Positions 31,801 through 56,780 of a stretch of DNA of 64,000 nt are shown piece by piece. This stretch comes from Beroe forskalii. Lineage: Eukaryota; Ctenophora; Nuda; Beroida; Beroidae. The notes under the pieces are model-generated. The model had not been told where the DNA came from and made no database searches. It worked only from the letters and a program-made list of their open reading frames with translations. Positions within the stretch are counted from its first letter, which is position 1, and each line of letters opens with the position of its first letter. The DNA lies in contig WFMF01000202.1 in NCBI GenBank assembly GCA_011033025.1, positions 242,419 through 306,418 of the forward strand, read 5' to 3'. Both the position numbers and the translations under genes were made by a program.

Positions 31801-34800
31801 CACATAGACACAGACACACAGACACACTCTATAATGTATAACCCTCTCGAATCTGTCTTCTCTAATGGACGGTGTACCAAATCATGTCTATTTGTGACAA
31901 GGGGGTATTTTTACTTTTAGTGCTCCATCGAGTCTCGAGCCATACTCTTTTCTAGAGTAACAAAGTACCGTGTTTAACTTTTCACATATAACACCGGAAC
32001 CTCTTTTGTCAGAAACAAAACAAGAACGCCCTGGTTATATTGCATTTTAATGACAATATGACATGAAAGAAGAATGAAATATTCATTTTATACTTTATAC
32101 AATCCCTGCTGGAATTAAAATGTAATTATTGAACCATTGTTCGGTGCGGAACCAAGTAATTCGACAGTGCTCAACAAGTTTCCAAAGAAACAACATTATA
32201 CACGTCACAAGTACGCGGAACTTTGAGTAGGAAACTGCCCATTTTACTTCGTAGACTACAATCATGATTGAAGCCATTCTTTTCAAATTTTGCTCGTCCA
32301 TTAACTTCCCAAACCCCTCCCAACTTCCCAAGATTCTTTATAGCGTCCGAGTAAATTAAGTTATACGGTCTTTACTGAATTACAGTGCAAATTTGCTTCG
32401 AACTTTTGAGGTTGCGGTATACGTTCACCACTTCGACATGTAACCGCTCATTATCCTGCAGAACAGTTTCTCGTCGGATGGAACTCTGGAGTTTGAGTTC
32501 GAGCTGTCCACGGAAATCCTGGAGGAAGATTCGAACGGCAATGTGGTTCCGGTTGTTCAGGACAGCAAGGTCGGTTTTTTATCCAAAGTTTTGGTATATT
32601 GAAGAGTTATCTTTTTTATTGATGAAACACTGAGAGTTAGACCGCGTCATTGAAAATTGCCGTCAGTTGAACCCTTCTCCAAGTTAGCAGTGAATGCTCT
32701 ATGTTCAACTGCCCCATGTTAATTTGAATTTTCAAACATCCTCGGACCCATTTCAATTCCCCCTGAGGAGTGTTGTTTTGGACCAGTGAAACAGTATATA
32801 CCTTTTCAATTGCATGAAATTAGAGAACAGTTTTAACATAAAACGCCAAAAATAAGCTTAAAAAATAAACTGAAAAACTGCTAAGCATCTTCACATGAGA
32901 CAACAATCAATATAAGTCCCAATTTAATGAAACACTAGATTAAACTTGATTAAACTTAATACAGTACACATATCTCAAACATTGTCCGGTAATCTTATTA
33001 TCAAAACTCCCATCGTAACTCCAGCTCAGCGAGTTCTATGGTGACGCATCTTCATTCTTCGTAGTGATCGGTCGCGGTAGGCGAGGAAGTAGGACGCCCA
33101 GTTGGTGTAACTGTTGGGGAGTGGTGCCCTGTCTCGTGTCCGGTGGTCGTTCCAAATCCGGAGGTTGTCCAGTATCCGGTGGTCGAATCTGATGTAGATC
33201 CCGTGGGGGAAGAACTTGTTTCAGAGTGGTGGGTTGGCATGGCATCGGAGTGCAGTGCAAACACACCCAGGATAACAAGAACCAGTGCTGTGTTGGGAAA
33301 CATGCTGAGCTGAAACCACAGAGATTAATTAGAAGAGAAAAATCTCTATTGGCTTAATATTGTTGTCGAGGAATTTTATGTGAAGAAATTCTTATTCGGG
33401 AAATTAGAACAATCGTATCATAGTAATTTGGTGGAAAATAAAACCGGGAACCCCGTCTTGACTCGTAAACTGGAACCCTAAAAACGGCTTAATGGTTTAA
33501 AAAAAAGTCTCGTAACAGAAAGGCACACTATTCTCAAGTCAAGTGGACTAAGACTCGATGAATGGACTGCCGAATTTTTGCCGTACATTTTAAAGTTAGC
33601 CTAAATCATAAATCCCCATTCCCCTGTGTTGAAGGTGCGTTAATTTCTTCACATTAGTCAATGTAATTTCTATTTGATCGTTACTCACTGATGATTTATT
33701 TTTCCATAAGGTGTTATGTATACACCCTCATTTAAGGATAGTGACGAGCATTCGTAGTTTCGAAATTTTCCACAAAATTTGTTAGAATGCTATTTTTAGA
33801 AGGAACAGATGGAGTTGCAGGTTGAAGACATTATTTTTCTCTGCAACTCGGTAAAATTCCGCATTTTGATGCAACGGTAGCTGGTTGATAAACCAAATTT
33901 GTGGCATAATCCAGGCACAAAGTTTAATCCATTTTTGTAAGATCATGAACTATACAAGAATAAACCATTGAAATGTGCCAAGTTGATTCTCACTGCCGGT
34001 TCTCACTGTCTAAGAAGCCCTTATCAGCCCAGTGAAATAGTGGTAACCGGTTTCGTCGGATTATCGTCGGATTGCCCTGATTTTATCCCGTCACATTCCT
34101 CAGGAGACATTCAAGCTACGAGAGACCCGTATTCAGCACATAATCGTCACAGTAACTCAGACCACAAGGTGAAAATACCCCTATTTGATATTTGATCATT
34201 ACGAAGGAAAGAAAAATAATCTGAATCAAGCTCATTTCGCAACATTTACCATGCTTATGTTTGCTTATTTTTTGGTCAGATTTAGGTCCATCAATAACTT
34301 TTCAATAACAAGTTTAAATGCTTCCTTGCTGCAGCTCTACGTTGATACTGGAGCGGTGCTGTGGGTTGTTTCTGGGTCCGCCTGACTGCAGCGACCCTGA
34401 CAACTACCTGCTACTCGATATGCCAATAGGTGAGTGGACGAGTGGGTGACAAGAGTGGTATTAGGTAAGTGGTCGAGTGGGTGGCAAGAGTGATAAAAGG
34501 TGAGTAGACGAGTAGGGGTGGCAAGAGTGGCATTAGGTGAATTGAAGAGTGGGTGGCAAGAGTGGTATTAAGGTGAGTGCAGGAATGGGAGACAAGAGTG
34601 GTATTATTTCGATATAGGATAGTTCAATCAATACATGCACTCTTTCTGACGCGTCACAGCCCTTGTCCCAGAAATGGAGATGGGCACGGTGTCAACAGGT
34701 CCTCTCTACACGATCAAAGGAGTCTGGAACCCTGTCCTGCAGCCCTGCCACTGGATGAAAGGGGACGGTGAGTTACGTGATATGAAGCGCGTGATGAATA

Positions 34801-35992
34801 ACGCGTTATACAGGAAACTAGTGGTGAATAAAGCGCGTGTTTTGCGTTTTATCCTTAAATACTCACCCATTTAATGTATTCCATCTATGCATTCCTTGAA
34901 GTATTGATCCAATAAGAAATCTTGTACCTTATTCTTGGATCATAAATGTTTTTAACACGATTTTTATGAGCTTCCATTTATAACGTTGAAATCATAAGGT
35001 GTGAAGGGAGCAACTATCGCAATCGACGTAGTTGCATCAGGAGTCTTGGATCCTATCAGATTCGAACGTCGGGTTCAGTTTAAGATATATCCGGATACAG
35101 AACGGTTCTTCCTTTCCTCACGCTATCACAGTCAACAGAACTACACTGTCACCCTGAAACCGGTTGGTAACGTTTCGTTAACCTTATTATGGCATATTAG
35201 CTTACCCACAGGTCCATTCAACATTGGCCAATCAGCGTGCGAGATGAACGTAAACTCGACCGCTTATTGGTCAGTGTCAAGACGATTCCCGATCCTGTGG
35301 GTCCTGCGCGATCCTGCCGTCGATACAGATGGAATCTAATCATGTAGAGTTCGGATTAATAATTAATTAGCCTGGTTTGATCCCCTTCACATTGACATCT
35401 GTGAAAACGCCCTCGAACGCCCCAGCACAGCTTTCAAAGTGAGATGATTTCATTTTTTCATAAAGCTATGACATTACTCTAAACCGTTATAATCATAATA
35501 TGTATGCGTAGTATAGTCACCAGTTACTAATCAAACCCCACAGAACACGGATGACGAACACAGACGATTTAGTCTTAGTTCCGTGGTAGACAAACCGGTT
35601 ACCTCATCACCCAGTAGACTGAAGTCTCTATTCGCTGGCATTGGCTTTGTGGACGAAATGTCCGATGATTACATGGAATCTGATGGTATGCGAGACAAGC
35701 TATATTTGTTACATTTTATGATTGCAGTATTTTGATAGAGAATGTCGGCATTCATGAAGGATCAGAGACCTTTTTAAGGGATTTTTGACTGAAACTTTGG
35801 ACATAAAATCTCCAAATCTTACCAAATCTACTCCTTATTCCCATTGTAGGCGAGGAACCTCTGATATCTGGAACGGATGACGTAGCTACGGAGGAGGTAT
35901 CGGAAGAAATAATGAAGACTTGGAACGATTTGCTGGAGGAATGGACTGACTTCTGCACTCGACCACCCGAACTTGTGAAACTCGCACGGAAA
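25873..35992 (+). CDS. RABGAP1: RABGAP1/RABGAP1L-type Rab GTPase-activating protein, 5' and middle exons
   Basis: Family members activate GTP hydrolysis by Rab proteins through a TBC domain, at endosomes, Golgi or centrosome. Exons with GT-AG borders and matching phases: 25873-26007 (Met possible at 25893), 26232-26392, 26579-26692, 26899-26952, 32462-32569, 34104-34168, 34335-34429, 34660-34767, 34999-35162, 35544-35685, 35850-35992. The first four form the PTB domain (VFDNVNYMGRAVIG; VLYCTKSAALPHCFAYTSG; CSRILNCMATTFNRG). The next five form the DUF3694 region (TLEFEFELS; LILERCCGLFLGP; IKGVWNPV; AIDVVASGVLDPIRFERRVQ; DTERFFLSSR). The last ends with W..LLEEW, RPPELVKLARK, the lead-in to the TBC domain. 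The next expected exon (G.PE.LRG) is not found before the retrotransposon at 36.3 kb or after it. The donor at 35163 (GTTGGT) is weak, and upstream N-terminal exons are not recognised. Which paralogue it is cannot be said. Confidence 0.85.
26953..28432. other. RABGAP1 intron, no feature seen
   Basis: First part of the long intron between the PTB and DUF3694 exons. AT-rich, without recognisable repeats or coding potential. Exon phases (0 on both sides) allow direct joining of 26952 to 32462. Confidence 0.5.
28437..30664. mobile_element. 2.2-kb non-autonomous DNA transposon with CACCTGTAACA motif array
   Basis: The ends are perfect 25-bp inverted repeats beginning GGTCAAAGAGAAGTTCGAC (28437-28461 and 30640-30664), flanked by TTAT on both sides (28433-28436, 30665-30668) as a 4-bp target duplication. 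Inside, a 10-11 bp motif CACCTGTAACA occurs about 22 times between 28.50 and 30.59 kb, roughly 12 in one orientation and 10 in the other, spaced 20-180 bp in otherwise unrelated AT-rich sequence. A second phrase, AGACTGGGTAGTATA, is repeated near 28541 and 28721. There is no transposase frame. It sits in the RABGAP1 intron. Superfamily is not assigned: 4-bp duplications occur in several groups. Confidence 0.85.
30669..32461. other. RABGAP1 intron, remainder
   Basis: Contains the truncated MITE at 31019 and simple CA/GA tracts near 31805-31830. Short open frames near 30822-31019 and 31284-31541 show no family resemblance and no flanking splice sites in a useful frame. Confidence 0.45.
31019..31104 (-). 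mobile_element. Internally deleted copy of the 160-bp MITE
   Basis: The reverse complement matches the 19895 element through ATCGTTCACAT, then TGTAACAAATACAACTACTG and TTGATTAC.AG..GGAGGGG. The middle of the left arm and the whole right arm are missing. Confidence 0.6.
33052..33303 (-). CDS. Small secreted Ser/Thr/Pro-rich protein nested in a RABGAP1 intron
   Basis: An 83-codon single-exon frame on the strand opposite RABGAP1, between its exons at 32569 and 34104. The protein starts MFPNTALVLVILGVFALHSD, a clear signal peptide with predicted cleavage after ALHSDA. It continues with about 60 residues almost entirely of Thr, Ser, Gly, Pro and His (TGYWTTSGFGTTTGHETGHH) and ends DHYEE. Such tails are typical of O-glycosylated, mucin-like peptides. 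A splice acceptor-like TTTCAG lies 5 bases before the ATG, so a 5' UTR intron is possible. No family recognised. It could be a chance open frame, but the signal peptide followed by a biased mature region argues for a gene. Confidence 0.5.
   Translation of the reverse strand: MFPNTALVLVILGVFALHSDAMPTHHSETSSSPTGSTSDSTTGYWTTSGFGTTTGHETGHHSPTVTPTGRPTSSPTATDHYEE
34430..34606 (+). repeat. Minisatellite whose unit is a 5' splice site (5 copies)
   Basis: It starts exactly at the donor of the RABGAP1 exon ending at 34429. Five units of 34-37 bp run GTGAGTGGACGAGTGGGTG..CAAGAGTGGTATTAG. Units begin at 34430, 34465, 34500, 34537 and 34573. Each of the first four ends in AG directly before the next GTRAGT/GTGAAT, so near-consensus AG|GTRAGT donors recur in tandem. 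The intron resumes unrelated sequence at 34607. Confidence 0.9.
35203..35310 (+). repeat. ~105-bp dispersed repeat (MITE-like), copy 1
   Basis: Begins CCCACAGGTCCATTCAACAT and ends GATCCTGTGGGTCC, so the ends are partly inverted. Inside, ATTGGCCAATCAG and TTATTGGTCAGTG form a CCAAT-box-like pair. It shares most of its length with 45405-45512. It lies in the RABGAP1 intron after the weak donor at 35163. Confidence 0.6.
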
Positions 35993-36095
35993 GTATGTTT
36001 TTTAGTGAAATTAATTTAATTCAAATACATCAGGATTATCTAATATAAATTCCATGATATTCATATCATGAAAGTTAAAGAAGGAGCAATAGGAA

Positions 36096-36136
36096 CAGAT
36101 GTTCTATAATTGCCATATTGAATTATAGAACATCTG
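36096..36136. repeat. Perfect 16-bp hairpin with 9-base loop
   Basis: CAGATGTTCTATAATT is followed, after GCCATATTG, by its exact reverse complement. It lies about 100 bp after the last recognised RABGAP1 exon and 200 bp before the retrotransposon frame opens. Possibly a relic of a small element end. Confidence 0.7.
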
Positions 36137-36599
36137 GAATATGTGGTTCCATACCACCATTGGTAGATTAAGATCACGTGGTATTTTCAATTGTGTGTTG
36201 TGTTAAAGGTCACATATGCGCTGATATATGAAGCTATTGTCCAACTGACATGAAAATGTAGATGTCAAAACTTCTTCAAACGAAACCAAATTTCATGTCC
36301 TTGTACATTTAGCGAGCCCTAAGCCGCGTTCATTATAAAGAATCTCTACACTCGATGCAGTAAATGCAAATACACTCCAATGGCTTGTATTATCTCGACG
36401 TCAAGCGCCCTTTGGCTCTCCCTCACAACCTGATCCATGCAACACCCCATTCCACCCTCAAAATGCAACCTCCTCCTCCTCCTCCCTCAATCCAACACCG
36501 TCAACTCCACTCTCAACTTCCCTTGACTCACCTTCACACTTTTGCAACACGAGTGGAGCCTTTAGTCCTGTCACGCCCACCCTTGTCGTTGGGGGAAAT

Positions 36600-39500
36600 T
36601 TGGTGAAAGATGATGAGTCTCATTCAGATGGACTGGCGGTTCTTAACGAGATTCAAAAGTACCGTGAAAGTGAAGGTAACTGGTCTGGAGTGCAATCATT
36701 TCAGAAAAATCCAGAAATAGAAGGACATTTTTGTCCGCTCGAAATCCTTGCTACACCCAAAGGCAAGGACAAAGAAAAGTGGGATGAGCTCGATGCCTTA
36801 GTTGGGCATGAGCTGGAAAAAGCTAGCCATGAACCAGGCAGCAACATTGATGAAAAATTGGCACAGTTTAAGGATATCATCTACACAGTGATAGCAGAGA
36901 AATATGGTACAAAAGAACGTCACCAACATGTTAAAAAAGGAAGAAAGGAACATGTTGATCAGCAGAAGAAAGAAATGCGGAAGAAGAAGAAAGAGTCAAA
37001 ACGAAGATATAAGGAACTTCTCAGACAAGCAGCCTCAGATAGTGAAGTTAATGATGAAAGAGTGAAATGGCTCAAGCTGGTTAGACTTCACAACAAGCTC
37101 CGTCTACAGGAAATGAACATCAGAGGAAAGGATCAACAAGCCAGCAACAATGCTGAGTTTGAAAAGAACCCCTTCGAGTTTGTGAAGAACAACATCACCT
37201 CTACGGAATCTAAGCAGCAGCCTAGCCCAAAGTGTGATGTCAAGGAAGCCACTCGATTCTTTACAGAGAGATATAGTGATGATAAACGAGATGAGAAGAT
37301 AGAGTACCCATGGTTTGTAAAACCGCCCTTACCACCCAAACACGTCCTCAGCACGGAACCCCCATCAAGAGAAGAAGTTGACAGCTATGTCAAGTCCAGG
37401 CGCAACAAAAGTGCCCCTGGACCAGATGGAATTCCATACGTCGTGTACAAGAAATGCACCACAATTCGATCCTTCCTCCACTTGGCACTGGTAGAGTGCT
37501 GGGAACAATGTAGTATCCCTGAGGGGGATCAAATTGCCCTGAAGTTCTTGATCCCAAAGACAGCCAGCAGTAGGAAGCTGGAGGACTTCAGAGACATAAC
37601 ACTGTTCAATGCTTCCATAAAAGTCATGTATGGTGTGTGGAGCAGAAGAGTGACGAAATACATGACACAGAACAGGTACATCGACACTACAATCCAGAAA
37701 GGATTTATCCCCAAGGTGGCAGGGTGTGTTGAACACAACCAAACTCTACATGACATCATGAGAACTGACAGAGAAAGAGGGAAAGCTGTCCAGGTATCAT
37801 TCATTGATCTCAAGAATGCGTTTGGTTCTACAAAGCACAATCTCATAGTAGCTGCTCTACAGTGGTACCATGTACCACCAGAGATTATAAACATCCTCAA
37901 AACCCTCTATTCTAACTTCCATGTCCTCGTTTCGGTGAACAATGAGCTCACTGAACCTATCCCAGTTTTGATAGGAAGTTTACAAGGTGGACCTGAAGCC
38001 GGAATTTGCTTCAATATTCCCTGGAACATAATTCTGGACGGGTTATGCAGGAAAGCTTTAGAGATAGGAATAGCTGAAGGGGAAAAGCCTGTCTCCGCCT
38101 TTGCAGACGACCTCACCACAAAGACACACTGCATGGCAAAACAACAGAAGCTTTTAGATTACACAGGATGGATGTTCAAATGGTCAAAATCATTCCAGCT
38201 CAACACAAAGAAGTGTAAAAGTCTGTGTATTGACGAATCAGGGATACCAACAGAACACAGTCTGAACATCAATGGCCAAAAGTTTGGGTCACTGCACAAG
38301 TCACCCTTCAAGTTCCTCGGAAGGTGGATATACCCTACACTGTCTGACAAAGCCAATCTGAAGAATGTCACTGACAAAGTGGAGAACATCCTCAAAAAGA
38401 TCAACGACCTAGCACTCGATGGAGTAAAAAAGACTTGGATATACCAATTTGGGCTACTTCCTTACATCAGCTGGGACTTAATGATGTACCCACTGATGGA
38501 AACGACCATCCAAGCATTGGAAGCAGTGATCAACAGATACCTTAAGAGATGGTTGGGGATAGCGAGGTGTGCTGATCCTTCAATCATATACAGGGAGAGG
38601 GCTGGTCTCAACATCACCAACATCAGATTGTATGTCCTCAGTAACTGCCTGAACACCCAGCTTACAACGGCTACGTCAAGAGACCCCCTCGTTAGAAGAA
38701 CAGCAAAAAGGAAAAGAGATGATCACATGGATCAAGATGGATGGAACCCCAGCAAGAAGCTCAAAGCTGCAGTTGAAGAGATAGACTTCGAGAAGAAGTT
38801 CATGGTCAACGTGCGGATGAAAGGAGATAGGAGAGGCCTTGATAAAGAGAAGAAGATCAATCTCAACAAGAAGAATGTCATCGCAAAAGCCAAAGACCTC
38901 ACCAATGATGAGAAAATCGGAAAGATCCTCCGACTAGCATCCCAGAGCAAATGGACAGAATGGGATGAACTCATCAACCTGGATCTGAAGTGGAAAGAAC
39001 TCCTCTACAGCTTTTCACCGTCCATGCTCTCCTTCCTGCTGAACTCGATCCAGGGGACCCTCCCTGACCCAATGAACTTGAGGAGATGGAAAAAGACTGC
39101 AGAAGCTAGGTGTCATCTCTGTGGATGGAAATACTGCTCCCAAGTCCACATACTCTGTAGCTGTAAGGTAGCACTACAGCAAGGGCGTATTTCCTGGAGA
39201 CACGACAGCTTACTCGGATCCATTCTCAAATGGCTAAAGACTAGTAAGAAGAAGAAAGAAGAAAGAAGAAACGAAGAAGGAACAAAGAAGATCCCAAGCC
39301 TCAACGATTCATTTGTGGCAGCTGGTAAGCCCATACCAAGAAAGAAGAAACTTCCTCAGAGAAATGGTCAATGGTGGGGGGATGCTCAAGATTGGAAGTT
39401 CCTCTGTGATAAGAGAAACGAGCAATATCAAATACCACCAGAGATTGCATGCAGTCCACTTCGCCCTGACATCTGCATATACAGCCTTGATAGGAAATCT

Positions 39501-39818
39501 TGCCTGTTTGTGGAACTTACCTCCCCCTTCGAGGATAACATCGCAGACTGGAAAATAAAGAAGTCAACAAAATACGAAGATCTAGTCAGAAGGTCCAAAG
39601 AAAAAGGATGGAACACAAAACTCTTCACTGTAGAAGTAGGAGCTCGAGGATTCGTCAACACCAGCTCCATGGCTCTGTTTCGTTTTGTGGGACTTACCAC
39701 AAAACAATGTAAAGTTATCAGAAAAGAGCTCTCTATCATAGCAGTAAGAGCAAGCTACTTTATCTGGCTGAACAGAGAGAATAAAGAATGGATACAACCA
39801 GCCAAGGTTGTAAGTTAA
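36600..39818 (+). CDS. Reverse transcriptase plus C-terminal restriction-like endonuclease (element ORF)
   Basis: An uninterrupted frame of 1072 codons (open from 36339). Counted from 36600: a Lys/Glu-rich basic stretch at about 105-150; then reverse transcriptase with SAPGPDGIPY near 270, the FRDITLFN and QKGF...GCVEHN motifs, FIDLKNAFGS with catalytic Asp403, GSLQGGPEAG (QGG 462-464), the catalytic FADD at 501-504 and FKFLGRW near 570. There follow a zinc-knuckle (CHLC 838-841, then HILCSC) and the nuclease core RPDI at 955-958 with ELT at 972-974, a PD-(D/E)XK arrangement. These are the hallmarks of the early-branching non-LTR clades that lack an APE endonuclease. There is no ATG in frame until about residue 126; 36600 is only a TTG. 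The upstream open part (36339-36599) is Ser/Thr/Pro-rich. No frameshift or stop interrupts the conserved region, so the copy is recent. Confidence 0.9.
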   Translation: MVKDDESHSDGLAVLNEIQKYRESEGNWSGVQSFQKNPEIEGHFCPLEILATPKGKDKEKWDELDALVGHELEKASHEPGSNIDEKLAQFKDIIYTVIAEKYGTKERHQHVKKGRKEHVDQQKKEMRKKKKESKRRYKELLRQAASDSEVNDERVKWLKLVRLHNKLRLQEMNIRGKDQQASNNAEFEKNPFEFVKNNITSTESKQQPSPKCDVKEATRFFTERYSDDKRDEKIEYPWFVKPPLPPKHVLSTEPPSREEVDSYVKSRRNKSAPGPDGIPYVVYKKCTTIRSFLHLALVECWEQCSIPEGDQIALKFLIPKTASSRKLEDFRDITLFNASIKVMYGVWSRRVTKYMTQNRYIDTTIQKGFIPKVAGCVEHNQTLHDIMRTDRERGKAVQVSFIDLKNAFGSTKHNLIVAALQWYHVPPEIINILKTLYSNFHVLVSVNNELTEPIPVLIGSLQGGPEAGICFNIPWNIILDGLCRKALEIGIAEGEKPVSAFADDLTTKTHCMAKQQKLLDYTGWMFKWSKSFQLNTKKCKSLCIDESGIPTEHSLNINGQKFGSLHKSPFKFLGRWIYPTLSDKANLKNVTDKVENILKKINDLALDGVKKTWIYQFGLLPYISWDLMMYPLMETTIQALEAVINRYLKRWLGIARCADPSIIYRERAGLNITNIRLYVLSNCLNTQLTTATSRDPLVRRTAKRKRDDHMDQDGWNPSKKLKAAVEEIDFEKKFMVNVRMKGDRRGLDKEKKINLNKKNVIAKAKDLTNDEKIGKILRLASQSKWTEWDELINLDLKWKELLYSFSPSMLSFLLNSIQGTLPDPMNLRRWKKTAEARCHLCGWKYCSQVHILCSCKVALQQGRISWRHDSLLGSILKWLKTSKKKKEERRNEEGTKKIPSLNDSFVAAGKPIPRKKKLPQRNGQWWGDAQDWKFLCDKRNEQYQIPPEIACSPLRPDICIYSLDRKSCLFVELTSPFEDNIADWKIKKSTKYEDLVRRSKEKGWNTKLFTVEVGARGFVNTSSMALFRFVGLTTKQCKVIRKELSIIAVRASYFIWLNRENKEWIQPAKVVS

Positions 39819-40060
39819 GACAGACTCATTGTACATACAATCATAGTTGCTTTCATTGTAAGATGTATTTCCAGATGTATATAAGTAGATGGATCCAGGG
39901 TTCCCTATGCAGGGACGTCACTGTGAGCTCTGGAAAGCAATTTAGGACGCATAGGGCCACTGAGCACCTAGATTGCACCATCTACCCACTAAACCCCTGA
40001 CGTTCTATATCGAATACTTCATTCGATCCCTATATCACCACATTGTGTTGGACAACACAT

Positions 40061-40532
40061 TCATCCACGGGGAGAAAGAACTTCTCATAACCCTCCTGGA
40101 CAGTTTCTGAAGATGGGAAGGGCTCATTGCATACGTGCATGAGCTCGGGTGTGTAACCTAAGCTGTGGAGCTACTGGTCAAAAGTACTCCTGGAAGCCAG
40201 GCCACACCCACTCGCTGCTTCCTATGTATCCCACTTCATTGAGACTCGAACCAACAGGGCATGCAGGACACCTTATCCTCTGTGGAACCCTCTACAGTGC
40301 CCTATCTCGCTGGTACTGCCTGTCCCCCATGGAGCTTCATCCACAAGGAAAAAGAACTTCTCATAACCCTCCTGGACAGTTTCTGAAGATGGGAAGGGCT
40401 CATTGCATACGTGCATGAGCTCGGGTGTGTAACCTAAGCTGTGGAGCTACTGGTCAAAGTACTCCTGGAAGCCAGGCCACACCCACTCGCTGCTTCCTAT
40501 GTATCCCACTTCATTGAGACTCGGACCAACAG
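40061..40532 (+). repeat. Two ~197-bp direct repeats 3' of the retrotransposon ORF
   Basis: Copy A 40061-40257 and copy B 40337-40532 (offset 275-276) run TCATCCAC..GG.AAAAGAACTT through GAGACTCG.ACCAACAG at roughly 97% identity, separated by 79 bp of unique sequence. Repeated 3' ends are common in non-LTR elements. Alternatively this is a tandem duplication of the target flank. Confidence 0.85.
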
Positions 40533-41579
40533 CTGGGTCCTTATTGGCTTACACCTTTTAACCAGTGGCATCCATTTATAGCAATAACATCTGTTACTAC
40601 CTCCATCGCATTCATGGTTCAGCTCCTCCAGACTCCTTTATGTTTGTTTGTTTTATCACAAAATCACTTCAATGGCAGTATTCTTTTTTCTTCCTCAGGA
40701 CAAACTTTAGTGGAAGTGGGATGGGGAGGTGACGAAACAGACATTGAGGACCTATTATAAGTACAGGAATGTCTTTGATTGACTGTCCATGGATGAGACA
40801 GGTGATTTACATGGCTGTTTTTAGCACCAATTTCATTTTCAAAATAGAGGTTTTTAGTCATCAGAAAACTAATAATGATCTTTAACTGCTTGAGGTGTAA
40901 GGACAGATGAGACTGTCATGCAAATGGGTATGCTGGGATCTGAATCTAGAGGAACTTGAGGTTTCTTTAATCAATGGATTAGTTGAATTAGGGATTCTTC
41001 AACTGAACAGGGCTTGAAATGAATTTCCCGAACTGAGGGTTTGGATTAAATAGTGTAATTCTGTCAAGGTTGTCATTCATTGTTCTCAACAGAAAGCATT
41101 TGCTTCTAAGATACACCTGATTCAGAGATATGTTCAAAAAGGTGTTTTCCAGTTTTTGACGTCTTCTTTGTCACATTCAATCTCCCAAGGGTTTCCAGAT
41201 CTTTCAAGCGAAGTTCTGGAAGACTTCATTTATAGACCCTTTGAATCAGGGACCATTTCAAAGGTTTGAAGGTTACCAACTCAACTGTTGTTTGACCAGT
41301 CCTACACGTGGTTTCTTACGCTTTTCAGTGCCAGGTTCCTCCCATAGGTTGGTCAAATTGATAAAAACTGGTCGGATGTTCAATAAAATCATCTGAATAA
41401 TTCATCATTTTATAATCATTAAAATTTCAATTATCTCCTACATAAATTAACCGTTTCTATAAGATTGAAGAAGTTTCCAGTTAACAAAAAATTTTAGTTT
41501 CCACACCAAATGAAAGATACCCACTTTTAAGGATATGGCATTATATCCCCAGTTCAGACCCTCCCCCATTATCTTTTAG

Positions 41580-42130
41580 GGAAGTTTTCGGAATCTAGAT
41601 CAAACCTTCCCATGGCAATCAAAAACCGTCCCACAAAAAAAAAATCCAATATTTCCACGAAAATAAAATATCCCCCACAAACGACCATTTCTCACCAAAA
41701 CTTCTGGCCCCAGCCGAGATTCCCGGACGAGGATCATTCCGTGTCTGGTCAACAATTTCCCATCACACCCCAATTTTTCAACCACCTGAAATGGAGTGGT
41801 AGAGGAAGGGGTGGTTACAGAGGGAGGGGGGAGTGGTTCATGAAGTTCATGGGGGAAATGGGGGTGGGATTTAAAAAAATTTTTAAAACCCCCTGCAAAG
41901 GGGAAAGAGGGAGGGGAAAGGGTAGGTTGAATTTGGTCCGGGTTTTCATTTAAACTTATCATACACCCAAAAGGGAAAAATTTTTAAAAATGGATTTTTT
42001 TAATGTTGGCTGTCCCCACAACGGTCACAGGTACAGGAGGAGCTTGATAGTCCCCATAAAATTTAAAAAGTTTGGGGGCCTAAGGGAAGGACGGCATCAC
42101 ATTTAAAGGGAAAGGGGGGGGGGGTTTTGA
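41580..42130. other. Homopolymer-rich patch, possible low-quality sequence
   Basis: Runs such as ten A, six T and ten G are far denser here than elsewhere in the window. Open frames of 113 and 120 codons on opposite strands appear only here and look like products of this composition. Confidence 0.45.
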
Positions 42131-42333
42131 ACTAGAACAGATAGCAGACTGCAATGGTATAAATTTTAGGGTAAAATGCAGTAAATCCACTAAATTTGTT
42201 ACGAAATTTGTGAAAAATTTGTCAAAAATGCCCATTTTCAGAAATTTTGGATATTGAAACTGGATTTCTCGGCTGCTCCTAGCGCTCTAAGTAAATTTAA
42301 TTATGAATCAGGAATCTTAACCTTAAATTGGTG

Positions 42334-42376
42334 TGACGTCATCATGGACTATTACATGCTACAAAAAGATGACGTA
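42334..42376 (+). repeat. 43-bp dispersed module
   Basis: TGACGTCA, 27 bases (TCATGGACTATTACATGCTA...), TGACGTAA. The spacing is conserved but the interior is the most divergent of the set. Confidence 0.55.
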
Positions 42377-47500: not shown

Positions 47501-50500
47501 ACTCTGCGGGGAGAGGAGTGTTAGTAGTGAAATTATTGGATCCGTCCGCCGTTTAGGAGTGTTAATAGTGAAATTATCACAATATTATAGAACCCTCTGA
47601 CGTTTCCATGCGGGTCTATAATATATAGAAACTTGCCTGAAGCTGATCGGGTCCATAATCCATATTGGTTTAGACCCTCGCCCTACGGGCTGTTGGTCTT
47701 AACCGGATACAACCCTCAGGCTTACGCCCGCGGGAAGTATTACAAAATGCTAAAATGTACCCGATAGGCGCGTGTTTATGTATAAAAACGCGGTATAGTG
47801 AGTCTGTATTATGGGTGTGTCAGCCCCTGTTAAATAAACCCTTGAAGCGTCAATTTTAAAATGGGTTAAAATTCATTGCATGAATGGTTTTTTTGATCGA
47901 ATTTATAACAAATTATTTTTTGTCAAATACGGTATCCTTGAGAAGTATACGGGAGTAAAGTAGAATATAGGTTCGTCTGTAAGGCGCGTGTCTTAGCACG
48001 TAGTTGGTTTAGTTTGAGCTTTAAAATGGTGAAAGTCTGGAGGAACGCCGGTTGACTTAGGTGGACCTTCAGTGGACCTTATCGGCGAAGGCAAACCTTC
48101 TCTTCCACTTTCTTCGAAGATTTTAGAGCTATCCACTTCGAAGAAATGGTGATCACATTGAAACATAATGATCGCATTTAATGTATCATTGTGCAACTCG
48201 TAACTCGTCTCAGACACAGATTTTTTTACTCGTTTAATTTCTAATTATACCATCGTGAAACCAACAGTAATAAATATCAAGTTTTGCATTCATAATTTGA
48301 AATGCTTTCAATCTGCACGTTAAACACCCTGAAAGCTTGCACCAAAGCTTGGAAGCGTTACGTCACGATTATATATATAAAATCGGGGCACATACTATTT
48401 TATATATTAGATTTTAGAACATATTTCTAAATATTATAATATATATACTTCAATATTTTGCGAGCTCATGTTTCTGTGTTTCAAGCTGAACCTAAATATA
48501 TCGCACATATTCACGCACACACACACGCACACGTACCTTATAGTCAGTGCGGTGATGTGAAACGCTCAATCATACCAAAACGAGAAAATGAGCAGTAAAA
48601 CTGGAAACTCAGGATATTTCAAGGTTTCATGGTAAAATGCATAAATCTCTTTCTGCTTTCGAATATACAAAATATAATGCTAAATAGGCAGCAGAAGGCA
48701 GCCTCATACTTTCGTGAAATCTCATGATAGCTCTAGAAAATTCCTAAATTGCGTTTTAACCCATTAAGGACTATGTCCACATATGTGGACACCTTACCAG
48801 CATGTACTTGATGATGAATAATTTTTAGGAATTGGGCATTTTCTTCATGAAAAAATATTTACGGGGTCAAACAGAGGCATGATTTTGTATACTGACCGCA
48901 GGAATACATCTCAGATATTTAGTTTCTGCATAAAAAGGACTCCACAGCAGCAAAATTTTCAATTTTCGACGATTTTTTTCAAGTACAAAGTAAGACAGTT
49001 CATATTACCGAATGATGCCCAAAAACACCATGGTATATTTGTCAATAGAGTGAATAACTTTGAAACACCAATTATATTGTAATGGCATTGGTTTATTCGG
49101 ATTGACATCCAATATAATATTGATGTCCACAAACGTGGTCATAGTGTGTCCACAAATGTGGACGTCCAAATACGTGGACACTGACTGTCCACGTATGTGG
49201 ACGTCCCCGTATGTGGACAATGAGTGTCCACGTATGTAGACGTCCACACATGGGGACGCTCAGTGTCCACATTTGTGGACGTCCACATATGAGTACAGTG
49301 ATATATTGATTCAGACTCACAGTCCTGGATCACACATCGTGTGCAATAGCCTTTGGTCTTATCTAGAAGGTGTCTGGTTCATGGCAAGGCCAACTTCCCA
49401 TTTTTTTTCGCTCCAAAAAGGGATGAAATGTTTGCATTCATGCTTTCACTTCCTTGCTCACGTGCCTCAGGTATCAATTTGCAGAGGTTCAAAAAAAGTC
49501 AGGTCTGATGTACTGGATTCAGAGATAGTCAGATCTGAAGTAATGGCTCTAGAAATAGTCAGATCTGATTTAATTGCGTAAGCCAGGTCTGATGAACTGG
49601 CGTCTGAAAAGATGTTTAAGTTCGATGAACTCAATGTCAGAGATATAGTGAGCCATGGTCCGTTGTATTGGTGTCAGAGAAGGTCAGGTGAAATCCACTG
49701 ATATACTGCAGTCAATTCGTATTCGCTGCACTGGTGTCAGGGAACCCCCGGTACATTGTTACTTTGTTATGGTGTCTGGTCTAGCCAGGTTAGATGAACA
49801 AATAGTCAGGTCTGATGTACTGCTGTCTGGTGACTGGGGTTTTCATGAACTGGTGTCAGAAATATTGAGTCAAGTTCTGCATTATTGGTGGCAGAGGACA
49901 TCAGGCCGGATCAACGGTTTTCTGGTCTCTGGGATTGTCAGGTCCGATGAACTCTGGTGTCACAAATAGTCAGGTCTGATGCACAGGTGACAGGGATAGT
50001 TATGTTCGAAGCTGGTGGCAGAAAAAGTGAGTGAAGTTATGACGCATGAGTGTCAGAGGACATCAGGCCGGATCACCGATGCTCTAGTGTCACAAATAGT
50101 CAGGTCAGATAAACTGGAATCAGAAATAGTGAGGCCTGATGTACTGGTGTCAGAGATAATGAGCCAGAACCGATTTACTGTCGTCAGGGATAGTCTTATT
50201 TCCGAACTTCAGGTTGGATATCCAGCCGATGCACTAGTGCAATGTACTTGGTGCCAGCAATATAAGTCAAGCACGAAAGTGAGCTTCGGTATGCCTACCG
50301 TATCCGTGATGTGTGTTACTCAGTCATGGAGCGAAAACAATCAACTGGCTACTAATTAATGTACCATACAAATTAGAAGGTACCACACATGCTTAAGTAC
50401 ATTATACATACTCTAAAATGTGTCGAACCTGATATCTTCAGCAGGATATAACATTTGGAGATTGTTAAGTTGTCACTAAGTTATAATTTTGTCTCCAAAC

Positions 50501-51420
50501 GTGGACGTCCACATATGTGGACACTGAACGTCCACATATGTGGACATGTCCACATATGTGGACAGTCAGTGTCCACGTATGTGGACGTCCACATATGGGG
50601 ACACTTGGTGTCCACGATCGTGGACGTCCACGATCGTGGACCAAACCAGCGACCACAAATGGGGACGGCCATTATTCAAAAAACTACAGTAACTACGATG
50701 CTGGACTTATGTTATATCAAATCATATGGCATATCAAGCTCAATCTGAAAATTTGACATCGCTACCTCAATCGGATCTTAGTGTGGTCCTTAATGGGTTA
50801 AGAATTGGTCTACCAATGTTTTATAATATTTGGTTTAAGTGTTAAGCATTAACCTGCTATCAGAGCCTAGAAATACAGTTAGGTTATAAAATAGGTTCAT
50901 ATTTGTGAGGAAGTAAGTGTTTAGCAGTATATGGTATAAACAGCACAGCTTCTCCTTGCTGACAAAAAACTTTGTGTTTCTGACAAAACTGCGGTGTTGC
51001 GCGTGGGAAATGAGAATGTATCAACGTGTGATTTATTACGCTACGACTTTTCAATGGGCGAGGTACGGGGTACTAAAATTCTTCTCAGGTCGAGAATACC
51101 CAACCATGACTTCGTGTAAATTTCATGTTTTCAAAAGTATGGATAAACCCGAGGATAGACAATAACATTCCAATAGTGATTACGTGACATTCTAATCACG
51201 TGAAAAAAACTGCCACTCTTATGAAACCACGAGATTTGAAGTCACGTGATAGGATATCACGTGAGATAAAGTAACGTGATATGAAGTCACGTGACATGAA
51301 GTCACGTACCTGTATGAAGCGGGAGGATAGCATTTCGGGGGAGAGCATGGTGTTGATGCTGCTGGGAAGGAGGGGACCGTTGATGTGAGACATCGTCAGG
51401 CCCGCAGCAATCGACGAGTT
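44501..51420 (-). CDS. Unrecognised protein, four minus-strand exons (partial gene)
   Basis: Exons in transcript order: 51420-51310, 47503-47382, 45978-45879, 44615-44501. All have CAG acceptors and GTA donors (GTACGT, GTAACT, GTATTA, GTAAGA) and phases that join without stops, giving about 149 codons. The first encodes NSSIAAGLTMSHINGPLLPS and is Ser/Leu/Pro-rich. The second is low-complexity (SLPNFMSPGSTPTLGG then TTPLPTTPTSTPNSN). The third (TECVRQLKLFINSLYALQQ) and fourth (LQKLNTDMERLMLLLKNETS) are amphipathic helices likely to form a coiled coil. The layout, a disordered region leading to a coiled coil, suggests a scaffold or nuclear/centrosomal adaptor, but I do not recognise the family. 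5' and 3' exons are missing. One piggyBac-like element lies in the intron between the first two exons and another upstream of the first. Confidence 0.6.
45405..45512 (+). repeat. ~105-bp dispersed repeat (MITE-like), copy 2
   Basis: Shares AGGT.CATT..ACATT..CCAATCAG and GCT.ATTGGTCA.TGT with the copy at 35203, in the same orientation. Divergence suggests an old family. It lies in an intron of the minus-strand gene. Confidence 0.55.
47513..47580 (-). repeat. 43-bp duplication just upstream of a splice acceptor
   Basis: AGGAGTGTTAGTAGTGAAATTAT (47513) recurs as AGGAGTGTTAATAGTGAAATTAT (47556), immediately beyond the acceptor of the exon at 47503. It is two units only. Confidence 0.6.
49148..49296. 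repeat. Array of eight 16-bp palindromes in 39-bp units (left array, copy 1)
   Basis: Units GTCCACATATGTGGAC and variants abut in pairs: 49148+49164, 49187+49203, 49226+49242, 49265+49281. Each pair is separated from the next by exactly 7 bp (ACTGACT, AATGAGT, GCTCAGT). Arms GTCCAC/GTGGAC are mostly kept while the central four bases vary. A degraded ninth unit lies at 49125. Confidence 0.9.
50491..50641. repeat. Array of eight 16-bp palindromes (right array, copy 1)
   Basis: Units start at 50491, 50507, 50530, 50548, 50571, 50587, 50610 and 50626. Spacers are again 7 bp, except that the second pair is split by AT. The last two units are GTCCACGATCGTGGAC, in which the centre has changed from ATAT to GATC yet stays palindromic. 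Confidence 0.9.
51221..51309 (-). repeat. 15-bp minisatellite beginning at a splice donor
   Basis: On the minus strand, directly after the exon ending at 51310, about six 15-bp units run GTACGTGACTTCAT, GTCACGTGACTTCAT, ATCACGTTACTTTAT and so on. The first unit supplies the donor GTACGT. The units carry CACGTG E-boxes. The frame stays open through the repeat, so intron retention would add a five-residue repeat of the type SRDF(I/M/K). Confidence 0.85.
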
Positions 51421-51810
51421 CTGAGAGGGGAGAAACAGTGGTTAGTAAGGAAAAATGGGGGTGAAACAGGGGGAATAACGTGTGTCATTTGAGATAAAGA
51501 AGATATGTGGGTTATTTGAGATAGGAAACGTGGGTTATTTGGGAAAAAGGAGAATGTGGGTTATTTTAGATCAGGCCCGCAGCAATCGACGAGTTCTGAG
51601 AGAGGGGAGAAACGGGGGTTATTTGGGATATCAAAGATAAAGGTGGGTTTATGAGAAATGTGGGTTATTTGAGATACGAAACGTGGGTTTAAAAAACGGG
51701 GGTTTTGAGTTCTTGAGTATGAGAGATAAATGAGAAACAGGGATTATTTGAGATAAAAAACGTGAATCAAACGTGGGATAAAGGAATAATGTGGGTTATT
51801 TGGGGTAAAG
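51421..51810 (-). repeat. Minisatellite plus partial copy of an exon's acceptor and first 25 bases
   Basis: The segment 51396-51436 (last 16 intron bases with CTCAG and the first 25 exon bases, on the minus strand) is repeated at 51571-51613. Around it, about ten degenerate units of GTGGGTTATTTGAGATAAAG with 20-40 bp spacing run to 51810. The copied acceptor is itself intact (CTCTCAG). Confidence 0.8.
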
Positions 51811-53326
51811 GAGAAGTGTGGGCTACTGAAGATGAAGCATCAACCAAGACCAGAACCTATCACACCGAAGCCTTGATTTTTTATTCTACCAGGTATATCT
51901 TCATAATCATATCGTTATGCTCAATCAGAATACGAAAGAAAACACTGGTGAACTAGATTTGAATATCATACCCCCTATTAGCCCTGTCTGGAAGGTGATC
52001 GGTTCACAGGAGGTGTCCATGACATCCACTATAATCGGTATTTAAATTCTTCGGACGGCAGACTTGCAGACATCTTAATATAATATTTATGGCATGTGCA
52101 TTGTGTTGCGTGCGACTATTATCTTTTTCGTATATATAAAATATGCGCTCCTTTTTGCGCAACATACATAATAACATTTGCCCCGTTTGCTTATGTAACC
52201 TATATTTTTGAAGCTCAAGTTGGTTGAGTAACCTCGATACGAGTTACAAATGTAAAGGCGAGTTTGAGCCCCGGGTTTGCCCAAATATGCGATAAATGGT
52301 GTTTGAAGATAAAAGTAGGACAACTTAAAGACGGCAATCTTGAGTGTAATATATATTATGTAAATATATTATAGTATATTATATATGCCTGAGTGGGGGA
52401 GCGTGAGAAATTAAAACCTAATATCCTGGTTGAAATATTTAACCTATTTCTCCGAATCTAGGAACAACTATGCTCTCAACTTTCCGAAGAGTTTAACGGT
52501 TTCGGGGCCTATAAATGAATGAAATGGTTGAAGACATTGCGAATATATGATGGTTTAATCGAATCCAAATTTTTAAATATTTTCGCCAAGACAGGGCCGT
52601 GTAAGTTGTCCCAACCAGGAAGACACGTACGCAGAAGTTATATCGGTATGCAATGTCTGAATCTAAAGTCCTGGGACACACGATATTACGCGCGATATCG
52701 ACCAGTAGGTGTGAATACACACGCGCAAGATACGTACATGCGCAACCACGTGCATTTAGTGCATAGAAACTTGTCACTTTTAGTATCATATCCCTTGAAC
52801 ATTCCTCATATTATGCATCGTGTTTATGAGAAAACTTAAAAATTGCACTTTCAACTCATCAAAAATATATTCACAAAAGGCTCACAAGTACCGTATATCA
52901 TGTGAACTTTCAACTTAGCTTAATCGAATTAGACATTTTCTACGGAAGGATTCATAATATTTATGAAAAGTGTTGTATTTTTACATTCTAAGTATTTTAA
53001 GTATATTCATTGTTTAAATTTCTCTGTCAATATTTCGATCCTTTGATGTTTTTGTCTGTTTATTTGTTTGTATACTAGAGTTCAGTGTTTGTTCAGTTAA
53101 TTCTTACTGCTAACGACAGTTTTTATGCGTGTATGTAATATGTATCATGACTATGTATGTATCTGTGTTTCTATTAATGTTTGTGCGTGTGTTCTAGAGT
53201 TTGTACACCAGTGTGTGTGTGTCACTGTGTCGTTATGCATTATTTCCTTATTTCTATGTGGATAATGTCCAGCCTAGTCATGAGTACTCGCTGTATATAG
53301 CAAGGTAGCGCGCAGCACATGTCGTA
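51811..53326. other. Gene-free stretch between repeat clusters
   Basis: AT-rich with no supported exon. A frame at 52519-52839 and its reverse at 52493-52789 show no motif. A short passage at 52660-52760 (CGCGCGATATCGACCAGTAGGTGTG) has faint similarity to 46960-47000, perhaps an old repeat. Confidence 0.4.
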
Positions 53327-53369
53327 TGACGTCACCAACTCACCATGCTAAACCAGGCCCATGACGTCA
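53327..53369. repeat. 43-bp dispersed module with TGACGTCA at both ends
   Basis: This is the most complete copy: TGACGTCA at 53327 and at 53362 with 27 bases between. Reading the minus strand gives the usual orientation, ending GCATGGTGAGTTGG before the second octamer. Confidence 0.75.
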
Positions 53370-53842
53370 CTCTCAGCCGCCTACTATCTGGAGATGTACA
53401 GAATGTACGTTTGCGTCGAGTTCTAATGTCTTTTATAATGTCTGTCTTTAGCTTTACACTATAGTCCTAGGTTAGACGTGGATTTTATTATTCTGCTCGC
53501 TTTTCTGTTAATATATAAGCTATAAATTTAGTGCACTTTAATATTATTTTTGTTGACATTTTATTTTTGAATAAGCGTTCAACCCCAGTTCCATATTAAA
53601 TAGAGCTATTAGATCATTCACGATAAATAATTCTGATTTCGTTAAGTTATCTTGTCTTGCTCTTTTGACGGCAATAGTGTTGTTAACCCATTAAGGACCA
53701 CACTAAGATCCGATTGAGGTAGAGATGTCAAATTTTCAGATTGAGCTTGATATGCCATATGATTTGATATAACATAAGTACAGCATCGTAGTTACTGTAT
53801 TTTTTCGAATAATGGCCGTCCCCATTTGTGGTCGCTGGTTTG

Positions 53843-53993
53843 GTCCACGATCGTGGACGTCCACGAATGTGGACACCGAGTGTCCCCATATGTGGACGTC
53901 CACGATCGTGGACTCTGACTGTCCACATATGTGGACATGTCCACATATGTGGACGTTCAGTGTCCACATATGTGGACGTCCACATTTGAAGAC
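53843..53993. repeat. Palindrome array, inner array of copy 2
   Basis: Eight 16-bp units start at 53843, 53859, 53882, 53898, 53921, 53939, 53962 and 53978, with 7-bp spacers and the same AT split between 53936 and 53939 as in copy 1. GATC- and ATAT-centred forms both occur, in a different order from copy 1. Confidence 0.88.
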
Positions 53994-55215
53994 AAAATTA
54001 TAACTGAGTGACAACGTAACAATCTCCAAATGATATATCCTGATGAAGATATCAGGTTCGACACATTTTGGAGTATGTATAATGTACCTAAGCATGTGTG
54101 GTGCCTTGTAATTTGTATGGTACATTAATTAGTAGCCAGTTGATTGTTTTCGCTCCATGACTGAGTAACACACATCACAGATACGGCCACGGTTGGCATA
54201 CCGAAGCTCACTTTCGTGCTTGACTTATATTGCTGGCACCAAGTACATTGCACCAGTGCATCGGCTGGATATCCGACCTGAAGTTCGGAAATAAGACTAT
54301 CCCTGACGACAGTAAATCGGTTCTGGCTCATTATCTCTGACACCAGTACATCAGGCCTCACTATTTCTGATTCCAGTTTATCTGACCTGACTATTTATGA
54401 CACTAGAGCATCGGTGATCTGGCCTGATGTCCTCTGACACTAAAGCGTCAGAACTTCACTCACTTTTTCTGCCACCAGTACTTCGAACATAACTATCCCT
54501 GTCACCAGTGCATCAGACCTGACTATTTGTGACACCAGAGTTCATCGGACCTGACAATCCCAGAGACCAGAAAACCGTTGATCCGGCCTGATGTCCTCTG
54601 CCACCAATAATTCAGAACTTGACTCAATATTTCTGACACCAGTTCATGAAAACCCCTGTCACCAGACAGCAGTACATCAGACCTGACTATTTGTTCATCT
54701 AACCTGGCTAGACCAGACACCAGAACAATGTACCGGGGGTTCCCTGACACCAGTGCAGCGAATATGAATTGACTGCAGTATATCAGTGGATCTCACCTGA
54801 CCTTCTCTGACACCAATACAAAGGACCTTGGCTCACTATATCTCTGACATTGAGTTCATCGAACTAAAACTCTAAAACATCTTTTCAGATGCCAGTTCAT
54901 CAGACCTGGCTATTTCTTACGCAATTAAATCAGATCTGACTATTTCTAGAGCCATAACTTCAGATCTGACTATCTCTGAATCCAGTACATCAGACCTGAC
55001 TTTTGTTGACACCAATGCATTGAACCTCTGCAAATTGATACCTGAGGCACGTGAGCAAGGAAGTGAAAGCATGAATGCAAACATTTCATCCCTTTTTGGA
55101 GCGAAACAAAATGGGAAGTTGGCCTTGCCATGAACCAGACACCTTCTAGATAAGACCGAAGGCTATAGCACACGATGTGTGATCCAGGACTGTGAGTCTG
55201 AATCAATATATCACT

Positions 55216-55387
55216 GTACTCATATGTGGACGTCCACAAATGTGGACACTGAGTGTCCCCATATGTGGACGTCCACTTACGTGGACACTCATTGTCCACA
55301 TATGGGGACGTCCACATAAGTGGACATTCATTGTCCACATATGTGGACGTCCACATTTGTGGACACACTATGACCACGTTTGTGGAC
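55216..55387. repeat. Palindrome array, outer array of copy 2
   Basis: Nine units start at 55216, 55232, 55255, 55271, 55294, 55310, 55333, 55349 and 55372, in pairs with 7-bp spacers (ACTGAGT, ACTCATT, ATTCATT). A lone perfect palindrome stands at 55722-55737, 15 bp from the element end, mirroring 48775-48790 in copy 1. Confidence 0.88.
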
Positions 55388-55756
55388 ATCAATATTGTAT
55401 TGTATGTCAATCCCAATAAACCAATTCCATTAGAATAAAATTGGTGTTTCAAAGTTGTTCACTCTATTGATAAATATACCATGGTGTTTGTGGGCATCAT
55501 TCGGTAATATGAACTGTCTTACTTTGTACTTGAAAAAAATCGTCGACAATTGAAAATTTTGCTGTTGTAGAGTCCTTTTTATGCAGAAACTAAATATCTG
55601 AGATGTATTCCTGCGGTCAGTATACAAAATCATGCCTCTGTTTGACCCCGTAAATATTTTTTCACGAAGAAAATGCCCAATTCCTAAAAATTATTCATCA
55701 TCAAGTACATGCTGGTAAGGTGTCCACATATGTGGACATAGTCCTTAATGGGTTAA

Positions 55757-56345
55757 TGCTAGGAGTGAATAGATTGTTGCCACACATAACCCAAAAGTGA
55801 TATATGCATCATTATAACATACCAATAAACCTATTTCTCGCGCAAGCCACAAAAGGGTTACTCTTCGTTATCAACTTATCTTTCTGTGCTTTGATGATTT
55901 TGTCATATCAACCGCCTATATCTCCTTCAGACAAAACATAATATCAATGTTATCGAACTCACGATCACTGGTCTTCGCATTCCACATAGTTTACAGATCT
56001 CCGTGCAGATCATTAAGATGTTGTTGAGGGGATTCCTTATCTTTCATTACGTGCTCCTGCTTGAAAGTACCTTTTAAAATAAAGTTCGGACTTTTATATT
56101 CTTTGATATTTGTGCCCATATTATTTTTTTTCTTCATTTTTTTCTTGATTGTTTTTGTTAATTGGGACTGCTAGAAATCATGTTTCAGGCATTTTTATAG
56201 TGCGTTTCGAACTACAGAACATATATTTTTCAACCCATTATTTTCCCCCTTTTGGGGAGAAATCCTTGCAGCTGATTCAGAAATCTACCTTGCTCCCCAA
56301 CCCTCCCCCTCCCCTTATTGCTCCAAGTTCTAACCCTTGATTCCT
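55757..56345. other. Short gene-free stretch
   Basis: Nothing recognised. T-rich sequence near 56100-56160 and a C-rich run near 56290-56315 precede the acceptor-copy repeat. Confidence 0.4.
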
Positions 56346-56557
56346 GACTTCAAATTTTTGATGATTCCCAGCCCGCCCCTACTCCCAATAACCCTCAGGC
56401 TCAGACTAACCCTCAATTCTTAAGATTTAAATGATTCCATGCCCCTACTCCCAATAACCCTCAAATCTCCAGATTTCGATGATTCCATTCCCCTACTCTA
56501 GATTTTGATGATATCATTCCCTATTCAAACTCTCCCACTAAACCCCTATTTCTCTAG
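56346..56557 (+). repeat. Tandem copies of a splice acceptor and exon start
   Basis: Ahead of the exon at 56558, about four degenerate units repeat the exon's first bases (ATTTAGATGATTCCATG) and intron text CCCCTACTCCCAATAACCCTC. Copies of GATGATTCC or its variants lie near 56360, 56430, 56480 and 56507, several preceded by AG (AAGATTT, CAGATTT, TAGATTT). Confidence 0.75.
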
Positions 56558-56780
56558 ATTTAGATGATTCCATGTCCTCCACTTACCCGTTCAACGGTGG
56601 CTACAACGACTACAACAAGCACTTCAACCCTCAGCTGCAGGATTGGAACAGGGACGCCAATCGTGAGTACATTCACGAGATTTAATTGTGTTTTAGTGTA
56701 AATATCTCACTTGTATTCCAGCTGCTGTAACAGCCAATGAGAGAAATCGATGGATGATCAAGCCAATGGCGGTTAAATAA
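56558..56780 (+). CDS. Probable last two coding exons of an unrecognised plus-strand gene
   Basis: Exon 56558-56662 (acceptor TTTCTCTAG, donor GTGAGT) and terminal exon 56722-56780 (acceptor TATTCCAG, stop TAA at 56778) are separated by a 59-bp intron and join in phase. The first encodes LDDSMSSTYPFNGGYNDYNK followed by HFNPQLQDWNRDAN, with an ATG at 56572 that could also be a start. The second gives PAVTANERNRWMIKPMAVK. An AATAAA lies at 57227, 447 bp downstream. No upstream exon was identified and I do not recognise the protein. The hydrophilic Asn/Tyr-rich composition suits a cytosolic C-terminal tail. It could be a short gene in its own right. Confidence 0.4.

Follow-up and report, generated by a model that had tools for sequence, protein, structure and literature searches.

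Several exon borders in a 64,000-nucleotide stretch of the genome of the ctenophore Beroe forskalii (hereafter the window) carry short tandem repeats whose copies span the splice junction. We consider it probable that these arrays are junction-straddling ("mirage") minisatellites produced by general tandem duplication and tolerated on the intron side of the border. The original prediction had named five places in three genes where repeats start at, or are built from, splice sites. We read these five places base by base and analyzed them with TRF and a direct-repeat finder, and the presence of repeats at exon borders is confirmed: four of the five places are as described, and the acceptor of the third gene is putative. 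Copies that span a junction lie at 34430, 51309, and 51420 and putatively at 56558 (Table 1).

Table 1. Exons and repeats at exon borders in the window
Feature	Positions	Strand	Basis and details
Kinesin-like gene exon (gene 1, weak candidate)	34335..34429	+	Open frame; 3' end abuts the donor that opens the 35-bp array
35-bp minisatellite, units opening with donor-like AGGTRA	34427..34606	+	TRF: 5.1 copies, 79% matches
Two 23-nt copies adjoining but not crossing the acceptor at 47503	47514..47577	-	Direct-repeat finder
15-bp minisatellite downstream of donor (gene 2)	51220..51307	-	TRF: 5.9 copies, 75% matches
Gene 2 exon with repeats at both edges	51310..51420	-	Predicted exon; splice signals listed
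Intronic minisatellite, ~23- to 27-bp units, enclosing the copy at 51571	51477..51834	-	TRF and direct repeats
Copy of acceptor region plus 25 exon bases	51571..51613	-	Direct repeat, score 41
Tandem copies of putative acceptor/exon start, upstream of the predicted first coding exon of gene 3	56400..56580	+	TRF, direct repeats
Putative first coding exon of gene 3	56558..56662	+	Open frame, ATG at 56572, donor GTGAGT

At the donor at 34430, the exon tail CCAATAG is followed by GTGAGT, and copies of this donor recur at +35, +70, +107, and +143. Read base by base and together with the TRF array, these copies bear out the claim that the unit of a 35-bp repeat opens at this donor. The host gene would be a weak candidate for a kinesin-like gene, given that the exon, joined with its neighbors, aligned to Pfam DUF3694 (kinesin) at an E value of 0.0034 with a score of 18 bits, below the cut-off of 27. 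One search of the assembly with this locus matched the window and copies of a dispersed repeat but revealed no further copy of the locus, of the kind expected from unmerged haplotypes. The dispersed repeat (~110 bp, 35191-35302) has at least 52 further matches on other contigs, mostly 80 to 88% identical, some of them with both orientations at one place. We also note a retroelement adjoining the kinesin-like exons, with an open frame of 1,159 amino acids at 36339-39818 (RVT_1, E 2.9e-12), and a 198-bp segment duplicated in direct orientation with 97.5% identity at 40060-40257 and 40336-40532.

Gene 2 has repeats at both edges of a single exon, and its product gave no family match above chance. 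The minus-strand donor at 51309 reads CTTCATACAG in the exon and GTACGTGA in the intron, and the motif CTTCAT is common to the exon tail and the first unit of the array, which by eye reaches ~10 bases into the exon; the claimed 15-bp repeat running downwards from this donor is recovered by TRF at a period of 15. At the other edge, the copy predicted for the acceptor and 25 bases of exon is present as described: over 38 nt it is 95% identical to 51396-51433, at a distance of 175 bases. The duplication reported at 47513 proved weaker than claimed: it does adjoin an acceptor, as two copies (47514 and 47555) 41 bases apart and 96% identical, but the pair stops 10 nt short of the acceptor at 47503, on its upstream side, and neither copy includes that site. 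A long inverted repeat at 48756-55756 was excluded from the exon-edge repeats as two transposon copies. These are inverted copies, 94.6% identical, of a ~2-kb element (48756-50804 and 53680-55756) with ends TTAACCCATTAAGGAC and internal 39-bp arrays of GTCCACATATGTGGAC palindromes, which we take to be piggyBac-like.

In gene 3, whose product matched no family, tandem copies around GATGATTCCAT lie at 56419, 56467, 56496, and 56552. The part of the original prediction that describes repeated copies at 56346-56557 thus stands at four positions, and the part that makes them copies of an acceptor depends on a putative site at 56557/56558. Two joined peptides used as PDB queries matched nothing useful. 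The window lies at the end of contig C251; elsewhere in the assembly, the 13,339-bp contig C1134 carries a derived cox1 that needs TGA to be read as tryptophan and has 20% GC over 2,844 bases.

The same structure recurs in other genes of this genome. We searched the 216-Mb assembly twice with repeated donor motifs and recognized at least 20 distinct donor-motif arrays (8 + 12) among the matches listed, 16 of which (7 + 9) were read. Half of those read (8/16) lie astride an apparent exon edge, seven at a donor (L002, L003, L014, L021, L025, L073, and L074) and one at an acceptor (L043), and all eight include exon sequence in the unit, by eye from ~9 to ~40 bases. The remaining eight comprise one array that adjoins an acceptor (L020) and seven without a recognized exon edge. 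Arrays found through a donor motif are selected by it, and they are therefore evidence of recurrence and not of frequency. Exons at the straddling loci were called as open frames, with Pfam matches at L002, L021, L036, L039, and L074. Of the motif-found loci, L002, L014, L021, L043, L073, and L074 were scanned, and exons at three of them matched a family (Peptidase_M1_N, WWE, and a kinase that fell under the Pkinase cut-off and over that of PK_Tyr_Ser-Thr); L073 gave only a weak family match, and L014 and L043 gave none. Junction-spanning copies also turned up without motif selection, at the acceptor of a Sec8 gene (L036:9565, 57/60 identical), at a donor (L032:554), and at the acceptor of a C8-domain gene (L039:3321). 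Spanning tandem duplications thus hit both boundary types, donors and acceptors, and the proposal that duplication across exon edges is a route of intron growth is upheld to the extent that such duplications, in the window and in other genes, make introns longer.

Several further repeats were seen elsewhere in the assembly. A long array of ~36- to 37-bp donor-bearing units follows an exon at C77:417549-420317 (L025-L031), and an array of a similar unit lies ~33 kb off on the opposite strand (C77:453471-454650). A CAGTCATGT-type satellite occurs on three contigs (L039:4061-5203, L069, and L072), and a tandem repeat at L040:3482-3805 forms an open frame and was called as exons in the gene prediction.

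Lengthening of an existing intron is distinct from the birth of a new one, and the arrays could instead mark recent intron gain through tandem duplication of exon segments that contain AGGT. Units do contain AG/GT, the exon tail lies within the unit at L021, L025, L073, and L074, and the intron at 34430-34659 is mostly array sequence; intron gain by tandem duplication is, moreover, called genuine in the part of a review consulted here (PMC3443670). That intron nevertheless has its acceptor at 34660 outside the array, which ends at 34606, and the ~50 bases between are not unit copies, nor is the acceptor. In this one intron, the only one examined in this respect, donor and acceptor do not both lie inside copies of the duplicated segment, and we regard recent intron gain as quite unlikely to explain the arrays.

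The original prediction had also suggested splice-site buffering, and a related idea is that the copied sites are retained for this purpose or to provide alternative exon ends. GTRAGT is intact in four of the five units of the array at 34430, and some arrays elsewhere hold many intact donors, as retention would have it; those in motif-found arrays, however, were selected by the search, and unit lengths vary. We examined reading frames in ten donor cases, using the longest upstream open frame and scanning up to 600 bases downstream, or as far as the sequence piece extended, for donor copies. This yielded 48 copies, all from seven of the cases; five are reached before an in-frame stop, and two of the five preserve the frame. 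At 51309, the longest open frame differs from the believed one and there are no downstream copies, and the pieces for L073 and L074 were too short to contain any. With only 2/48 downstream donors in frame without a stop, the result argues against buffering and against maintained alternative donors, an explanation that we consider very unlikely. Decaying introns would be expected to contain extra donors that fit the coding frame this poorly.

The original prediction held further that repeat edges coincide with exon borders rather than lying at random, and one account of this is that splice junctions are preferred sites of breakage or slippage, linked to transcription or R-loops, at which tandem duplications start. 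Within the window, TRF edges do fall close to junctions, with two seen within 5 bp against 0.24 expected under random shifts (P = 0.022) and two within 10 bp against 0.45 (P = 0.08); these P values are uncorrected, and the window was reported because of this very pattern. Among curated junctions of the window, 4/22 have a spanning copy (score ≥18), compared with 96 of 1,000 random window points (binomial P = 0.15) and 41 of 505 intron points in two of the genes (binomial P = 0.10).

The distance of repeats from splice sites, which the original prediction had proposed as a check, was measured in a 100-kb sample of ten 10-kb stretches (L032-L041) from contigs C1, C2, C44, C77, and C251. The stretches were chosen at round coordinates without looking at repeats, on contigs already known from matches, and are not a random draw. 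Exons were predicted ab initio with a small, self-trained, home-made gene finder; five of six predicted peptides that were scanned belong to families at E < 0.001 (TCP-1 chaperonin at E 3.7e-109, Sec8, SH3, Peptidase_M1_N, and a zinc finger), and one matched none. Requiring a copy that spans the junction with a score of at least 18 within 350 bases, we found such copies at 3/72 junctions; among random points outside exons, 201 of 1,450 (13.9%) had one. Junctions thus had fewer (Fisher P = 0.013), a deficit that may reflect coding constraint only, since part of each junction segment is exonic and copies are rare in exons too. The control count omits the satellite stretches L039:3900-5300 and L032:7600-8800 and becomes 232/1,500 with them, and L040:3482, L040:3707, and L033:827 were left out of the junction count. 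An initial run at the same score gave 5/67 junctions against 40/400 control points; three of those five matches were rejected because the predicted exons that carry them consist of tandem repeat (L040:3482 and L040:3707).

No peak appears at the junction in the distance profile of the sample, which runs from 3/72 at 0 to 4/72 at +15, 5/66 at +60, and 7/58 at +100, with exonic offsets between 1/66 and 5/72. TRF arrays make up 9.8% of the sample, and one edge was seen within 5 bp of a junction where random shifts predict 0.75. Arrays touch 3/74 junctions in the sample and 1,395 of 11,421 positions outside exons; in the flanks of motif-selected loci the figures are none of 31 junctions and 1,245 of 3,581 control positions, and in the window 2/36 predicted junctions and 301 of 6,974 control positions. 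This test set aside any exon with more than half its length in arrays and, where exons on opposite strands overlapped, the weaker of the two, a filter that may lose real junctions within arrays. It missed the donor at 34429, and the window junctions were curated by hand. This direct test lends no support to a preference for exon edges: repeat edges are not tied to exon borders beyond chance in the sample, and the distribution shows no excess at junctions.

Genome-wide counts of donor motifs are mixed, although overall they lean toward some excess of donor-like motifs among local repeats. The whole genome has 219 pairs of CAGGTAAGT at a spacing of 8 to 38 bp and 20 of the reversed motif, for which single sites number 1,734 and 1,365, respectively, and pairs of AAGGTAAGT number 96 against 13 in the reversed control, a raw count not normalized to single sites. 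Counted by eye as arrays, 100 of the 219 CAGGTAAGT matches contain at least 12 and all 20 control matches ~6; all 96 AAGGTAAGT matches contain 30. AGGTRAGT triples run the other way, with 1,518 against 4,532 for the reversed motif (single sites, 16,902 against 29,409), and because large arrays such as that on C77 dominate the match counts, the triples are not a test alone. The excess of donor 9-mer pairs over reversed controls and the two window edges within 5 bp of junctions are what breakage at junctions would predict, whereas the sparse spanning copies and flat profile of the sample, its single close edge, and the AGGTRAGT triples speak against it; we judge such breakage unlikely. Slower decay of pairs in which one copy is under selection may account for part of the donor-motif excess.

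The explanation that we favor remains tandem duplication as a general process, with the extra copies tolerated inside introns. The genome would have a high rate of short local tandem duplication, with some events spanning an exon-intron border, and copies would arise by replication slippage or unequal exchange. The exon-side copy would be the working splice site, held by coding need, so that splicing presumably uses the exon-proximal site, and the extra copies would land in the intron, where they would multiply and decay as close to neutral sequence. With the exon-side copy held by coding constraint and the extras only in the intron, arrays that touch an exon would end at its border without any targeting. 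Against this explanation stand the pair excess of CAGGTAAGT and AAGGTAAGT, the P value of the window edges, and a sample of only 72 junctions, predicted ab initio.

Structures of this kind are already known from amphioxus, and here one is seen in a ctenophore. The amphioxus mirage minisatellites, as described in the portions of the literature consulted, are tandem duplications across 5' or 3' exon-intron boundaries that carry AG/GT in many copies; they occur in Adh3, troponin C, and the globins BflGb6 and BflGb9, and repeats in PGBD5 have been likened to them (PMC3087553; PMC3902484). The Beroe arrays resemble them as minisatellite-like duplications spanning donor or acceptor boundaries and differ in host; units here are ~15 to 65 bp, compared with 150 to 160 bp in the amphioxus globins and 10 to 72 bp in Adh3 (PMC3087553). 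Regular splicing and haplotype length variation are reported in those amphioxus accounts, whereas the ctenophore structures are known from genomic DNA. A partial survey of the literature brought no report of mirages outside cephalochordates to our notice.

Three other systems are related, again as far as the sections consulted describe them. Intron gain by tandem genomic duplication shares the duplicated AGGT-like junction sequence (PMC3443670; PMC2891723) and differs in that here the duplication adds to an intron. Internal tandem repeats in human segmental duplications likewise show that boundary minisatellites can alter gene structure, but those were found as paralogue variation with transcript support (PMC2812944). 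In Cryptococcus, introns are also affected by repeat expansion, but there whole introns were multiplied in a repetitive gene region (PMC2395259).

The absence of an edge preference in the sample advises caution against inferring targeting where coding constraint alone stops arrays at exon borders, and the donor-motif excess, if upheld in an array-level genome count, would mean a real bias toward junctions. The finding of mirages in a ctenophore suggests that they are linked to a high rate of tandem duplication and are not a cephalochordate oddity. More tentatively, and with some doubt, we raise the possibility that, far from amphioxus, a few percent of junctions (3/72 in the sample) carry tandem decoys similar in sequence to the real site. 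If true, the genome would bear a standing load of decoy splice sites throughout, which would supply steady raw material for new introns and natural cases of spliceosome choice among near-identical sites. Loci such as those described here are natural tests of how a splice site is chosen among near-identical copies and of how introns grow.
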